Shown here: positions 2,967-22,977 of the stretch, piece after piece
Numbering within the stretch: the stretch's first letter is position 1
Layout: every line of letters starts with the position of its first letter
Notes under the pieces: generated by a model
Databases searched by the model: none
What the model was told of the DNA's origin: nothing
Seen by the model: only the letters and a program-made list of their open reading frames with translations
IMG/VR virus record: IMGVR_UViG_3300034190_000334
Coordinates: 1 to 24,243 of that record
Strand: one strand, 5' to 3'
Source of the DNA: a virus
Length of the DNA: 24,243 nt
Program-made: the position numbers and the translations under genes

Positions 2967-4917
2967 AAAGATAATAATTAGTGTTGAGTTAAAGGATAAA
3001 GGGGTAAAGTCAGGTCTTAAAGATACCACTTCTTCAATAGACCAAGCCACTAACGCAACACAAAATTTAGCTAATGCTGAGAAAGACGAAGCATATTGGG
3101 CAACTGAAGCAGGTCAAGCAGAGGCTTTAAGAAGTGTAAAAACTAATATCGCAAAAGGAGAGGCTAAGGCACTTGCTTTGGAAACTATCAAATTAACTGA
3201 TGCTACAAAGAAAGGTAAAACCCAAACAGGACTCAATAACGCTATTCTTACTGAGGCAGGTCGTACTGCATCTGATGCTGCTTATGGTATGCAAGGTATG
3301 GCGAACAACTTAGGTCAGTTGCTTACGTTGATGAGTCAGCACGTTAAAACAAAAGGAGGATTTATTGCTTCTATGAGTGAGCTTGGTAAATCTTTGTTTG
3401 GTATAGGTGGTATTCTAATAGGTTTGCAATTACTAATATCTTATTTGCCTCAAATACAGAAATTCTTTGAGGATGCCGCAGATTCAGCAAGTAAATTCCT
3501 TAAATCTATTAATGAAAATACAGAAAGTTTAAGACTTATAGCTACTCAGTTATCAGACCAAAATATCACTATTGAAAAGAGAAATTCCTTGTTGGCTATT
3601 TTAAAAAGAACAAACAAGGAGCTTTATGACTTGATGGTTCAAGATGGGGAATTAAACAAGGATGCAAGTCAAAGAATATTAACTTATATTGAACTACAAG
3701 AGCAGCAAAACAGGTTAAAAGAAAAGCAATCCAAGTTGTCGGAGGAGATTACCAGGATAGAAAAAGATGACTTTAAAGTAAAAAGAAAGCTACGTAATAT
3801 TGAGAATAAACATTTAGCAGAAAAGGAAAGAGCGCAAGAAACAGTTAATAGACTTCAGGAAAACGGGATTGCACTTACTGAAGAATATACAGAGTATGTT
3901 CTAACCAACGAGGGAACTATTAAAGTTCAAAAACAAAGAGCAATTACTGAAGAGGAATACTGGATAAACTTCAGTCGTAGACAAAGAAATGAAAAGGCTT
4001 TAGTAACAGACGAAATAACAGCATTAAACAGAAAGAAAGACCAATTAGCAAGAGGAGTGTTGGAATCTCAAATAAGAATAACTAAGTTGAGAAAAGAAGT
4101 TGGTTTAGATGTTCCTCCTCCAGCTCCTCGACCTCTTATACCTTTACCTGAACCTAAAGCCATAAAAGGTGCTGTTATGGGGATTGGCGAATTAGATGCA
4201 GAAGTTCTTAATCTAAATAAAACTACTGCGGACTCACCCCTCTTTAAACTTTTGAGTCTTGGGGAAGATTTACAGGATTATCAAAAAACTGCAAATGCAA
4301 TAGGCGGATTAGCACAAGGCTTTATTGATACAGAAATTCAAGCTGAAGAAGCCAAGACTGTAAAGTTAAATAATCAACTCAAAGAAAGGTTAAGCAATGA
4401 AAATCTATCTGCTGATGAGAGAAAAAAGATACAGGCTAAAATAGCTGCGAATGATATGGCTTTAGCTAAGAAGAAAAACAAATTAGCAGAAAAGCAATTC
4501 AAAATAGATAAAGCATTGGCTATATCTACAACTTTGATAAATACATTCGAGAGTGCAGTAAAAGCATATAGGTCGCAATTAACGGCAGACCCAACATCTC
4601 CATTTAGAGCTATTATTGCAGGAGCAAAGGCATCTGCGTTTGGTTTGGCTAAAGTAGCAATGATTGCAAAGCAAAAGTTCGTGCCTTCTGCAATATCAGC
4701 ACCTTCTGTTGGTGGAGATACAGGTGGTGGTGGAGGTATTGGTGGGGGGTCACCTCAAGCACCCTCTTTTAATATAGTAGGTAGTAGTGGTGTAAATCAA
4801 TTATCAGATGCTATATCAGCACAAGGAAGAAAACCTGTAAGAACATACGTAGTAGCTTCAGACGTATCTACTGCACAAGAATTAGATAGAAACATAATAG
4901 AATCAGCAAGTTTATAA
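2953..4917 (+). CDS. tail tape-measure protein
   Basis: At 654 residues this is a typical tape measure: long helical and coiled-coil stretches rich in Lys, Glu and Gln (about residues 190-370 and 450-530) and a hydrophobic segment near residues 145-170 (SLFGIGGILIGLQLLISYLP) that could enter the host membrane. Another apolar helical stretch follows, and a Gly-rich linker near residue 595. A Pro-rich stretch (VPPPAPRPLIPLPEP) breaks the coil near residue 385. In this family length sets tail length at about 0.15 nm per residue, predicting a tail near 100 nm. It is followed by the head protease rather than by tail-tip genes, which is unusual. Confidence 0.85.
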   Translation: MAQSEKIIISVELKDKGVKSGLKDTTSSIDQATNATQNLANAEKDEAYWATEAGQAEALRSVKTNIAKGEAKALALETIKLTDATKKGKTQTGLNNAILTEAGRTASDAAYGMQGMANNLGQLLTLMSQHVKTKGGFIASMSELGKSLFGIGGILIGLQLLISYLPQIQKFFEDAADSASKFLKSINENTESLRLIATQLSDQNITIEKRNSLLAILKRTNKELYDLMVQDGELNKDASQRILTYIELQEQQNRLKEKQSKLSEEITRIEKDDFKVKRKLRNIENKHLAEKERAQETVNRLQENGIALTEEYTEYVLTNEGTIKVQKQRAITEEEYWINFSRRQRNEKALVTDEITALNRKKDQLARGVLESQIRITKLRKEVGLDVPPPAPRPLIPLPEPKAIKGAVMGIGELDAEVLNLNKTTADSPLFKLLSLGEDLQDYQKTANAIGGLAQGFIDTEIQAEEAKTVKLNNQLKERLSNENLSADERKKIQAKIAANDMALAKKKNKLAEKQFKIDKALAISTTLINTFESAVKAYRSQLTADPTSPFRAIIAGAKASAFGLAKVAMIAKQKFVPSAISAPSVGGDTGGGGGIGGGSPQAPSFNIVGSSGVNQLSDAISAQGRKPVRTYVVASDVSTAQELDRNIIESASL

Positions 4918-13975: not shown

Positions 13976-14238
13976 ATAAATTCAAAAGCACATTGTTACG
14001 TAGCTTGGTTAAAGAGCAACGTTTAACACCTTTAGAAAGACTTGCCAATAGAGTAGGTTATATGGGGACAGGATTCTTTGTTACTGCTCCACACCTTCTA
14101 CCACAGGATTCGGGAATGGTTGTTTACATACTTGCAGGTTTATTGTCATTGCCTCAAGTACTGGTAGCAAAGCAATGGAACTTAGTCATTGTGAATTTAA
14201 ACGTAATGATGGCATACTTAATACTATTAGTAAAATGA
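13969..14238 (+). CDS. lysis-cassette membrane protein
   Basis: This 89-residue protein has a basic N-terminus of about 28 residues followed by hydrophobic segments at about 29-45, 49-66 and 70-88, suggesting two or three membrane helices. It overlaps the endolysin gene by 7 bases, and its TGA overlaps the next ATG. Such a protein in this place may be a holin partner or antiholin. I do not recognise a family, and function is inferred from neighbours. Confidence 0.75.
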   Translation: MVNKFKSTLLRSLVKEQRLTPLERLANRVGYMGTGFFVTAPHLLPQDSGMVVYILAGLLSLPQVLVAKQWNLVIVNLNVMMAYLILLVK

Positions 14239-14624
14239 GTTGGATAAGCAAACTTTTAGGAACAGGCACAAAAGGAATTGGAGATTTAGCGAAGGATATT
14301 CGTGAAGCTCTCAAGGGGAAAGAACTTGATCCTAACAAACAACTTGAAACTGCCGAAAGACTTGTAGCTCTACAAGCTAAGATAAACGAAACAGAGGCAG
14401 GTCATAGAACGATCTTCGTTGCAGGATGGCGACCTTTTATAGGTTGGGTTATTGGTGCTGCCTTACTTTACAACTTTATACTACGTGACTTAATAATATT
14501 TGCACATCCTTCCTGGTCTGATCTACCTGCACTTCAAATGGATGAGTTATTCACTATTCTATTCGGTATGCTTGGCTTAGGAGGTATGAGAACTTGGGAA
14601 AAGAAGCAGGGATTAACTAAGTAA
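14235..14624 (+). CDS. 3-TM holin-like protein
   Basis: The ATG at 14235 (overlapping the previous TGA) gives 129 residues. An upstream in-frame ATG at 14175 lies within the preceding gene and is rejected. The N-terminal 55 residues are amphipathic and charged. Then comes AGWRPFIGWVIGAALLYNFI at about 63-82, a hallmark of the 3-TM holin superfamily found in gene-transfer agents and phages. A further membrane segment near 104-120 (LFTILFGMLGLGGMRT) and a short basic tail follow. It would form inner-membrane lesions that release the endolysin. It is the last gene of the late block before a 500-base regulatory region. Confidence 0.85.
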   Translation: MSWISKLLGTGTKGIGDLAKDIREALKGKELDPNKQLETAERLVALQAKINETEAGHRTIFVAGWRPFIGWVIGAALLYNFILRDLIIFAHPSWSDLPALQMDELFTILFGMLGLGGMRTWEKKQGLTK

Positions 14625-14660: not shown

Positions 14661-14691
14661 TTGACTTTTGCCTACTCGTACTGTACCTTTG
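14661..14691 (+). promoter_or_regulatory. Bacteroidetes-type promoter
   Basis: TTG at 14661-14663 is separated by exactly 20 bases from TACCTTTG at 14684-14691, matching the TTG-N20-TAnnTTTG consensus. Transcription would begin near 14695, into the TCACGA repeat cluster, with no protein gene for about 440 bases. Confidence 0.7.
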
Positions 14692-14706
14692 CTACACAGG
14701 AATACT

Positions 14707-14770
14707 TCACGACACATACACATCACGAGTTAATGGAATCCAATATCACGACACTATATCGTGTTATGAT
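14707..14770. repeat. TCACGA repeat cluster with a dyad
   Basis: TCACGA occurs at 14707, 14723 and 14746; the first and third extend to the 9-base direct repeat TCACGACAC. An inverted CACGA complement (TCGTG) follows at 14759. The last two lie in a 26-base imperfect dyad at 14745-14770 with 10 of 13 matching pairs. The cluster starts about 12 bases downstream of the predicted start site near 14695, a plausible operator or origin-binding array; function is inferred. Confidence 0.6.
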
Positions 14771-14785
14771 TGTGCCAATAAAAAA

Positions 14786-14813
14786 TAAAAACAATATATT
14801 GTAGTTTTTTTTT
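14786..14813 (+). terminator. weak terminator candidate
   Basis: The perfect 12-base palindrome ACAATATATTGT (14791-14802) is flanked by an A tract and followed at 14805-14813 by nine T. The stem is A/T-only and has almost no loop, so termination strength is doubtful. It would end a transcript of about 115 bases from the promoter at 14661. Confidence 0.4.
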
Positions 14814-14845
14814 GCTTTTCATTAGGCATACTCTGCATAATTCCT

Positions 14846-14853
14846 TATATTTG
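14846..14853 (+). promoter_or_regulatory. promoter -7 element for the structured RNA
   Basis: TATATTTG is a perfect TAnnTTTG -7 element. The -33 position at N20 reads TAG rather than TTG, so this is weaker than the other two promoters and might need an activator. The predicted start is near 14857, just before the stem-loop chain. Confidence 0.55.
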
Positions 14854-14856
14854 TAA

Positions 14857-15068
14857 CATAACCGAGTGTTGGTTAATTTTTTACTTTGTGAGATGGTTAT
14901 CGTCTGTAATGGACACCATCTGTTACTCAGATATACTACAAACTACAATGAGTAGTATATCAACAAGATTGCAAGATATTGAACCATCTTGCAGTCACTA
15001 AGTTTTCACTTTGTTTGTTTGTTTTAATTGTAAAATTTGCCAGTAATTCATTTTATTGGCATTTTTTT
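14857..15068 (+). ncRNA. candidate structured small RNA, about 210 nt
   Basis: Between a TAnnTTTG promoter and a strong terminator lies a chain of stem-loops read directly from the sequence. SL1 14859-14875: TAACC/GGTTA, followed by six T. SL2 14891-14921: AGATGGT/ACCATCT plus an inner GTC/GAC. SL3 14930-14961: perfect 10-base arms GATATACTAC/GTAGTATATC, 12-base loop. SL4 14967-14996: GATTGCAAGAT/ATCTTGCAGTC, 11 pairs with one G-T, 8-base loop. The terminator hairpin is at 15038. The arm AGATGGT can also pair with a second ACCATCT at 14983-14989 inside SL4, giving mutually exclusive folds. No ORF or known RNA family was recognised. Confidence 0.6.
15038..15068 (+). terminator. strong intrinsic terminator
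   Basis: TGCCAGTAA pairs with TTATTGGCA (nine pairs, one G-T) around a six-base loop and is followed by seven consecutive T after the final A. It lies just upstream of the early promoter at 15079, so it insulates that operon from upstream transcription. Confidence 0.85.
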
Positions 15069-15078
15069 ATCTTTTATG

Positions 15079-15109
15079 TTGCATATGACAACAATATTAA
15101 CTATCTTTG
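15079..15109 (+). promoter_or_regulatory. promoter of the replication operon
   Basis: TTG at 15079-15081, 20 bases, then TATCTTTG at 15102-15109: a full match to the Bacteroidetes consensus. The predicted start is near 15113, about 26 bases before the first ATG. An AGGAGG at 15112-15117 coincides with the start site and is too far from the ATG to act as a ribosome site. Confidence 0.85.
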
Positions 15110-15138: not shown

Positions 15139-15300
15139 ATGAACGAAGATTTATTAAAAATGCAGTCAGAAATGATTGAAGATCTAAGGAAGATGGTCAA
15201 AGACCAAGAGCTTGAGATAAAATATTTAGTTAACACCAAATTTTACTTAGAATCACAAGTACGAATATTACAAAAGAAAAATAATAATCTTAATTATTAA
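15139..15300 (+). CDS. small coiled-coil protein
   Basis: This 53-residue protein is the first gene after the early promoter. The ATG at 15139 is chosen because a longer in-frame version from 15037 would include the terminator and promoter. The sequence is one long charged helix with heptad-like Leu/Ile/Met spacing (LLKMQSEMIEDLRKMVKDQE, then LEIKYLV, then YLESQVRILQK). It ends three bases before the ERF gene. First-gene position suggests an early host-interaction or regulatory role; this is inference, and no family was recognised. Confidence 0.7.
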   Translation: MNEDLLKMQSEMIEDLRKMVKDQELEIKYLVNTKFYLESQVRILQKKNNNLNY

Positions 15301-15303
15301 ACT

Positions 15304-15825
15304 ATGGCAACAGAAAACACAAACATCTACAAAGCATTGGCAACATTTCAACAAGAATGTCCAGTAATTCACAAGGGAACTTCAGGGTATGGTTACAGTT
15401 ATGCTGATCTACCAACAATCTTTAGTATCATCAATCCAATTCTACAAAGTAACGGATTAGGGTTTACACAACTTATCCAGGATGGTGCAATCGAAACTAT
15501 CTTATTCCACACAGAGAGTGGTCAGACTATCAAGAGCCTTACATCTATCCCTCAAAACGTATCGTTGAAAGGTATGAATGAGTATCAAGTATTAGGTTCT
15601 GCAATCACATACATCAGACGTTACGCATTGAGTAGCTTGTTAGGGGTTGTTACAGATAAAGATACAGATGCTGCAACACCAAAGCAAGTTAGAAAGCCTG
15701 TCCTTAACGCTGCAACACCAGCATTTGAGAAGGCACTAAAGTTTGTACGAGAAGGTGGTAGCATATCAGCAATCGAATCTAAGTATTCATTAGGAACAGA
15801 AGTTAAGGCACTATTAAAACTATAA
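15304..15825 (+). CDS. erf: ERF-family single-strand annealing protein
   Basis: This 173-residue protein matches the ERF recombination family. It has IYKALATFQQECPVIHKG at the N-terminus, YGYSYADLPTIFSIINPIL, the long strand-loop of LGFTQLI, and the signature GSAITYIRRYALSSLLGV followed by DKDTDAA. These proteins anneal complementary strands and work with a 5'-3' exonuclease; a RecE-like nuclease is encoded at 21640. The C-terminal 40 residues are a separate helical tail. It is three bases from the preceding gene and two from the next. Confidence 0.9.
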   Translation: MATENTNIYKALATFQQECPVIHKGTSGYGYSYADLPTIFSIINPILQSNGLGFTQLIQDGAIETILFHTESGQTIKSLTSIPQNVSLKGMNEYQVLGSAITYIRRYALSSLLGVVTDKDTDAATPKQVRKPVLNAATPAFEKALKFVREGGSISAIESKYSLGTEVKALLKL

Positions 15826-16443: not shown

Positions 16444-16719
16444 ATGAAAAACAAAGCAAGGTTTGTACACGTAAACTTAGAACTTATGACAAAAGACTTA
16501 AACATAAAAGAAGTAACGCTACTATCATTGATACAGTCGTTAGCTAAAAAGAAAGGCTACTGCTTTGCTACTAACGAGATGTTATCGGAGTCTTTAGGGA
16601 TTCACGACAGAACACTATACAGAATGCTGAATAAATTAGAGGAGGGTGGTCATATATCAAGAGTTACCCAATCTATCGGCAACTACGGAAAGGAAAGAAG
16701 AATATACTTACACGATTAA
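16444..16719 (+). CDS. winged-helix (HTH_36-like) replication protein
   Basis: This 91-residue protein has a helix-turn-helix layout: NIKEVTLLSLIQSLAKKKGYCFATNEMLSESLGIHDRTLYRMLNKLEEGGHISRV (residues about 20-74), with the recognition helix near IHDRTLYRML, then a wing with GNYGKERRIYL. This type is common at the N-terminus of phage replication initiators and helicase-loader proteins. The primase-helicase gene starts two bases after its TAA. A role in replication initiation is inferred from its place in the operon, and it could instead be an operon regulator. Confidence 0.75.
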   Translation: MKNKARFVHVNLELMTKDLNIKEVTLLSLIQSLAKKKGYCFATNEMLSESLGIHDRTLYRMLNKLEEGGHISRVTQSIGNYGKERRIYLHD

Positions 16720-22425: not shown

Positions 22426-22628
22426 TGGAGGATGAGCAGAAACAGGAAATAATACTCTACGGCTATCGAGATTCATTAATGCTCTACGATGAGGGATTAT
22501 CAATAGACGATATAAAAGAAGTATTAGAGTTATACGAACAAAGAGAACTGTACCTCACTTGTGCAGGAATTAAATTAGCAATAGACGAATTAATAGATAA
22601 ATATGGAAATGACAGCGTTAGAAATTAG
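22425..22628 (+). CDS. small helical acidic protein
   Basis: This 67-residue protein starts at an ATG sharing its A with the nuclease stop (TAATGG) and overlaps the next gene by 26 bases. It is acidic and helical, with a Leu/Tyr-rich stretch (LMLYDEGLSIDDIKEVLELY). No family was recognised. Coupling to the nuclease suggests it might regulate or bind it; this is inference. Confidence 0.65.
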   Translation: MEDEQKQEIILYGYRDSLMLYDEGLSIDDIKEVLELYEQRELYLTCAGIKLAIDELIDKYGNDSVRN

Positions 22629-22977
22629 ATTAAAGATAGAGAGTGATTTTGATGTAAGATTGAGAAATCAATCAAGACTTAGAGAATATGTATATCCACG
22701 AGCGGTGTACTTTAGACTATGTAGAGAATACACAGACTTGACGTTACAGGAGTTGGCTGAATCTATGAACCTTAAAACCCACGCAACAGTACTAAGGTCT
22801 TTGAACTTTACGTTCTACGATATGCTTTATGAGAACAAGTACAAGAACTATTACGAGAAGTTCAGAAGGCAGATGGAAGGCAATCCAACATTGGAACACG
22901 AGAACAAATTGCTCAAGATAAAGATTCAAGAGTTGGAGAATGTTGTAGAGGGGTATAGATTTAAACTCATAGGATAG
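22603..22977 (+). CDS. DnaA domain IV-like DNA-binding protein
   Basis: This 124-residue protein carries, at about residues 25-70, a close match to the DNA-binding domain IV of DnaA: YVYPRAVYFRLCREYTDLTL, then QELAESMNLKTHATVLRSL. It lines up with the conserved pattern PRQ...LAKELT..SLPEIG..FGGRDHTTVLHA, with T-H-A-T-V in place of D-H-T-T-V. There is no AAA+ ATPase part. A C-terminal coiled coil follows (LEHENKLLKIKIQELENVV). It may bind a DnaA-box-like origin or repress host initiation; either is inference. A second in-frame ATG at 22609 is possible. Confidence 0.7.
   Translation: MEMTALEIRLKIESDFDVRLRNQSRLREYVYPRAVYFRLCREYTDLTLQELAESMNLKTHATVLRSLNFTFYDMLYENKYKNYYEKFRRQMEGNPTLEHENKLLKIKIQELENVVEGYRFKLIG

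Follow-up and report, generated by a model that had tools for sequence, protein, structure and literature searches.

A structured, leader-like RNA unit between the lysis and replication genes of a putative Bacteroidota phage

Described systems and the phage locus

The putL and putR antiterminator RNAs of phage HK022 are about 70 nt long, form two stem-loops, lie just after an early promoter and need no phage protein (PMC9378689). They suppress terminators in cis via the beta-prime zinc-binding domain. The RNA described here comes from the window, by which we mean the whole stretch of DNA that was analysed, a 24.2-kb IMG/VR fragment (IMGVR_UViG_3300034190_000334, positions 1-24,243), and it is compared with put by layout only. 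Its core also consists of two stem-loops, hp2 and hp3, with a span of 71-76 nt; the core begins 48-53 nt after the -7 box of its promoter, P2, in eight phages, and it precedes early genes. However, the put stems meet at one junction (G35/G36), whereas hp2 and hp3 are separated by 8-13 nt, and the core model scores 12 bits or less, which is noise, in an 8-kb stretch of HK022 (26.0-34.0 kb). Because the stems are further apart and a sequence match is absent, we consider the layout to be put-like but the core not to be a member of this group. The two also differ in that the window phage has a Bacteroidota-type host and that antitermination by its core is hypothetical.

Other structured leader RNAs that lie ahead of a terminator in a mobile element or operon are canT, EAR and conAn2 (PMC11658703), although the activity of canT was shown for a 452-nt sequence, which is much longer than the window core (PMC11658703). 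Riboswitch-type leaders combine a conserved core with a variable platform, and the same can be said of this RNA, the platform being a terminator in the window and its close relatives (the window group) and a translated gene in contigs L147-L149; however, there is no Rfam riboswitch match, and an alternating terminator/antiterminator fold was not found. We know of no sequence family that canT, EAR or conAn2 shares with the window core. Finally, independent sRNAs have been reported in Flavobacterium, one of which is strongly structured and regulates proteases (PMC9723704). By description only, the Rfp18-type sRNAs are like the window unit in having a TAnnTTTG promoter, in being structured and in being independently terminated (PMC9723704), but they are chromosomal, whereas the unit is phage-borne. 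No description of this RNA was found in searches of an open-access library, and a non-exhaustive search of the same library yielded no phage-encoded structured regulatory RNA from Bacteroidota phages.

The fragment comes from a tailed phage. Portal, capsid and tail genes are followed by an M15 endolysin and by holins, the last of which ends at 14624; after a gap of 0.5 kb come the replication genes, with an ERF annealing protein, then an O-like initiator and then a DnaB-type helicase (Table 1). The unit lies in this gap, between the lysis genes and an early operon that starts at 15139, which is where the original prediction had placed it. We infer that the host belongs to the Bacteroidota, because the region has perfect TTG-N20-TAnnTTTG promoters (14661 and 15079) and because relatives of the ERF protein are present in Bacteroidota genomes.

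Promoters, hairpins and terminator

Table 1. Positions of the predicted features of the RNA unit and of nearby genes in the window.
Feature	Position	Strand	Remarks
P1	14661-14691	+	TTG-N20-TACCTTTG; of the sigma-A type of Bacteroidota; precedes the unit; kept in L008, L005 and L016
P2, promoter of the unit	14822-14853	+	TTAG (14822-14825), 20 nt, TATATTTG (14846-14853)
hp1	14859-14875	+	Weak 5' hairpin or operator-like TAACC..GGTTA; 88% of cells paired, no covariation
hp2	14891-14921	+	7-bp outer stem, 4-nt bulge UAUC, 4-bp inner stem, loop GUAAU
ATG frame	14909-15001	+	30 codons, inside the RNA; frameshifted in L003 by a 1-nt insertion
hp3	14930-14961	+	Perfect 10-bp stem (14930-14939/14952-14961), 12-nt loop AAACUACAAUGA (14940-14951)
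hp4	14967-14996	+	11-pair stem (14967-14977/14986-14996), 8-nt loop; window group only
Linker	15001-15037	+	T-rich, unstructured, ahead of the terminator; similar ones in L005 and L149
Intrinsic terminator	15038-15068	+	9-bp stem (15038-15061), 6-nt loop, seven T to 15068
P3	15079-15109	+	TTG-N20-TATCTTTG; promoter of the early operon
ORF	15139-15300	+	First of the early operon; ERF next
ERF	15304-15825	+	Early operon, driven by P3
O-like initiator	16444-16719		Encoded near the RNA unit
DnaA C-terminal (box-binding) domain protein	22603-22977		Pfam PF08299; late in the early operon

P1 and P3 are perfect Bacteroidota promoters, one on each side of the unit. P2 has TTAG rather than TTG as its -33 element, and this is kept in 10 phages. 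The same 10, which include L017 and L120, share the pattern TTAG-N19/20-TA(T/C)NTTTG followed downstream by a conserved GAGTGTT, and the boxes are kept even though the sequence between and upstream of them differs in L147, L149, L017 and L120. The TAnnTTTG consensus occupies positions -12 to -5 (PMC9723704), and the P2 transcript is expected to start near 14858. Transcription from P2 to the terminator would give an RNA about 211 nt long (14858-15068), and the gene order suggests that P2 would be an 'early' promoter.

The 212 nt from 14857 to 15068 have a predicted fold of -56.9 kcal/mol compared to -38.0 +/- 4.3 for shuffled sequences (z -4.4; 0 of 200 shuffles were as stable). A perfect stem of at least 10 bp was found in only 4 of 1000 dinucleotide shuffles. 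With G-U pairs allowed, a stem of at least 11 pairs was present in 86 of 1000, and therefore the 11-pair stem of hp4 is by itself weak evidence. The opposite strand of the unit is likewise unusually stable; this is expected of palindromes, which means that the strand cannot be told from fold energy alone. However, there are more G-U wobbles than A-C mismatches on the + strand (13 vs 4 and 15 vs 6 cells in two alignments), which, together with the T-tract, indicates that the + strand is the RNA strand. The wobbles also argue for an RNA rather than a DNA palindrome. One A-C mismatch occurs in hp3 of L015, where the predicted pairing is down to 0.05 in the full-length fold.

Seven terminator-like sites are present in 1.3 kb compared to 0.3 expected, but only the one at 15038 has a full T-tract. 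Its stem has predicted pair probabilities of 0.85-1.0 in four phages, and an antiterminator pairing that would compete with it was not found in the predicted folds of these four.

The original prediction listed a TAnnTTTG -7 element, 10-base arms at 14930/14952, an 11-pair stem at 14967/14996 and a strong terminator with seven T, and all of them are present. It also listed four stem-loops, and hp2, hp3 and hp4 can be retained. The first small stem, hp1, finds no support in the relatives; its closing C-G pair is broken in three of the five that were compared, although the GAGTGTT inside it is kept in 10 of 10 phages. The statement that the unit contains no ORF has to be modified, as an ATG frame of 30 codons exists, but this frame is broken in L003 and is probably not a gene.

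Conservation and covariation among relatives

The unit was found in four further phage contigs, being whole in L003, L008 and L015, whereas L097 ends inside it. The core and hp4 (14891-14999) differ from the window by 0, 1 and 4 substitutions in 109 positions among the three complete copies. In comparison, 9-16% of the positions in the next ORF differ, and fourfold sites in the neighbouring genes mostly have values of 0.05-0.34. Still, the least variable part of the region is the overlap of two holin genes near 14180 and not the RNA. Within this group the loops and hp4 are nearly invariant; the changes include a double change in hp4 of L015 (14971/14992, G-C to A-U) and another in the terminator of L008 (15044/15055, U-A to G-U). 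Taken alone, the covariation in the window group is modest, since 20 of 500 shuffles were equally good.

Two minor observations concern these contigs. L097 and L017 both end at the RNA unit, either within it or where it starts, and such breaks are expected if co-occurring phages share the unit nearly identically. In L003 (about 4360-4520), an insert of about 100 nt with 35-nt copies of TTTTTTTTRCTTTTCATTAGGYATACTCTACATA on both sides lies between P2 and an upstream unit (unit A, see below); it looks like a small cassette that was inserted or duplicated.

More distant relatives place the core in a different context. A pattern scan with GGACACCATCT...ACTACAAT found L016, in which only hp3 and the inner part of hp2 are left, directly upstream of a small gene; almost all of its hp3 stem is different and the 12-nt loop is kept. 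The protein of this small gene, and not the RNA, was used to retrieve L147, L148 and L149. In all three, P2 is followed by hp2 and hp3 within the 5' UTR of the same early gene, with the ATG about 18 nt after hp3, and they score 65-71 bits with a covariance model built before they were included. The window differs from them in having a terminator and P3 between the core and the genes.

The stems of the core have been rewritten between the two sub-groups. In hp3, both partners of 6 of the 10 pairs differ when the window group is compared with L016/L147/L149, and the loop ACUACAAU is unchanged while the stem is almost wholly rewritten in L147-L149. The outer stem of hp2 covaries as AGATGGT/ACCATCT, ATATGGT/ACCATAT and AGTTGGT/ACCAACT, with double changes in two outer pairs (L147, L149), and its inner part is invariant. 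Double changes were found in 8 of the 21 pairs of hp2-hp3 in an alignment of seven distinct sequences that fall into two sub-groups, most of these changes being on the one split between the sub-groups; they occupy 19 cells compared to 7.8 in shuffles. Ninety-five percent of the cells are paired compared to 31-51% when the arms are slid, and none of 500 shuffles reached the covariation score. The stem ends in the rows of this alignment were trimmed manually; since the hp3 arms have equal lengths in all rows, the placement of gaps has no influence on the pairing. Compensatory changes and conservation in relatives had been set beforehand as one test of the original prediction, and both were found, with strong covariation in hp2-hp3. 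Judged by this comparison with its relatives, the RNA is real.

What lies behind P2 varies. The window group has hp2, hp3, hp4 and the terminator; L149 has hp2 and hp3, then genes for MDIEQ and NinG and then a T-rich trailer with a terminator; L120 has another small gene. In the more distant L005 and L007, the equivalent place is occupied by a T-rich stretch and a terminator, and hp2-hp4 are absent. Thus the window unit resembles an operon of which only the leader and trailer are left, yet it is strongly conserved.

Several smaller features occur at the same junction. A 47-aa ORF (METYRGYEIRKN...) is present at the late/early junction of L016 (860-1003) and L120 (6431-6550), and a hairpin ahead of it has arms that change in step (AACACC/GGTGTT vs AACAGC/GCTGTT). 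Unit A (window 14661-14815) is a predicted second small transcription unit under P1 and is well conserved up to its terminator, an A/T-only terminator-like palindrome that is interrupted by inserts in L003, L015 and L016. A pairing of the hp3 loop with this terminator (14798-14807, ATTGTAGTTT, the complement of the loop) was considered and rejected, because it is not conserved and is absent from L015.

Rfam 15 gave no match in the window at the gathering cut-off, which agrees with the original prediction that no known family could be recognised. At permissive thresholds the unit had only weak matches below the cut-off, and Rfam gave none in L147, L149 or the L016 contig. Blastn against cultured phages, plasmids and E. 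coli genomes produced nothing or scattered weak matches. Covariance searches of three samples of about 395 genomes each, Bacteroidota genome samples included, gave nothing convincing; there were three marginal matches (L136, L150 and L151; 25-29 bits), and about one per sample is expected by chance. The match in L150 is antisense inside an ORF. L136, a Bacteroidota genome, has a tracrRNA-like sequence with a terminator at 1380-1500, divergent from a cas9-like gene, and the marginal match is just beyond it. A CRISPR mimic was considered here, but the match is outside the tracrRNA-like stretch and, on inspection by eye, no anti-repeat is common to the two; it was judged to be a chance match. Chance matches were also obtained in pattern scans with CTGTARTGGACACCATC (L108-L110), AAGATATTGAACCATCTT (L121-L127) and AACCGAGTGTTRGTTAA (L117-L119), the last of which also found L120, which is real. 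An hp3-like hairpin in L029 is located within coding sequence, and the recurrence of GGACACCATCT in the terminase gene of L008 was judged to be a coincidence.

Possible modes of action

The explanation that we favor, although tentatively, is that the unit is a new structured phage RNA that arose from a 5'-leader module and that its core acts in cis, as a leader or attenuator. The window RNA would probably be a new switch-like control RNA. The placement of the core in the 5' UTR in L147-L149 and its position in L016 favor either a leader/attenuator or an sRNA that arose from a leader, and cis action is the simplest single mechanism because both contexts share one promoter whose transcripts start with a folded core. 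The core would fold on leaving the RNA polymerase and act on the transcript from P2. In the default state, transcription in the window would stop at 15068 and yield an RNA of about 211 nt; an active core, by touching the polymerase or by binding a phage or host factor, would permit read-through of 15068, which would add to the expression of the recombination/replication operon from P3. In L147-L149, the core would control the gene directly behind it. We infer transcription, cis action and early timing from sequence features, and a hypothetical role in the early/late switch fits the position of the unit. Several observations count against a cis leader. The set of sequences is small and most double changes fall on one split, hp3 of L015 is predicted to pair poorly in the full-length fold, and an antiterminator pairing able to open the terminator was not found in the folds of the four phages. 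P3 is already a perfect promoter for the early operon, so read-through from P2 would be dispensable, and hp4 and the terminator give the window copy the look of a finished small RNA.

The latter appearance leads to the main rival, a real if doubtful possibility, in which a trans-acting sRNA of about 211 nt made from P2 would regulate phage or host messages, having evolved from the leader of an operon that lost its genes. Its pairing seeds would be provided by the loop of hp3 or by the two ACCAUCU repeats (14915-14921 and 14984-14990). For the window copy, such a leader-derived sRNA is almost as likely as a cis leader: the unit has its own promoter and a strong default terminator, its loops and hp4 hardly vary in the window group, and independent sRNAs are reported in Flavobacterium (PMC9723704). 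However, the core in L147-L149 is an mRNA leader and not a separate RNA, and although sequences complementary to the loop and to ACCATCT are present in the window, no target conserved beyond its coding conservation was found. The original prediction of a dedicated sRNA gene of about 210 nt therefore survives in its structure, size, conserved promoter and terminator, but not in its dedication, since the core serves as an early-operon leader in L147-L149.

It is unlikely, but would be consistent with the layout described above, that the core is a protein-independent processive antitermination RNA, i.e., a separately evolved analogue of HK022 put in Bacteroidota phages. If so, the core would stay on the polymerase and carry P2 transcripts past 15068 and past later terminators.

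The gene content behind P2 also raises the question of whether the unit is a relict of an emptied operon, a leader and trailer with no present function. L149, where two genes separate the same leader from the trailer, and L120, with its different gene, are what would be expected, but we consider a relict improbable because the core is conserved and because, once the genes were lost, both hp4 and the terminator underwent compensatory changes.

A leader peptide or small protein, with an ATG in the hp2 loop opening a frame whose translation is controlled by the hairpins, is slightly more improbable. The ATG is kept everywhere except in L016 (GTG), three of the four changes to the frame in L015 are synonymous, and the frame, which has 28 codons in L147 and 99 in L149, joins the downstream gene in L149. 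Nevertheless, the insertion in L003 alters the frame, and so do indels in L147 and L016. The two sub-groups would have unrelated peptides, and the hp3 differences in L147/L149 alter amino acids while preserving pairs.

Least credible is a DNA-level element, either a replication origin or an operator array with palindromes acting as DNA, because, although the unit lies between late and replication genes with an O-like initiator and a DnaA C-terminal protein encoded nearby, the origin-linked role in the original prediction is left unsupported by the G-U wobbles of the + strand, by conserved loops on rewritten stems, by the tie to a promoter and terminator, and by a search for iterons within the unit that found none.

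Returning to the favored leader-type RNA, the unit offers boundaries, a conserved loop and a structure backed by covariation, it occurs naturally both as a terminated RNA and as an mRNA leader, and it could be used as the seed for a new RNA family.

Two further observations concern the promoters. P3 is overlapped by an imperfect inverted repeat, TGTTG-CATATGA-CAACA (window 15076-15093), which is largely kept in L005 and is a possible operator for early-gene control. In L005 (4634-4667) and L007 (4620-4655), the P2 position is occupied by a near-perfect palindrome between the -33 and -7 boxes (AACATAATATGTT and AACATATTATGTT, respectively), which is likely to be a repressor operator.
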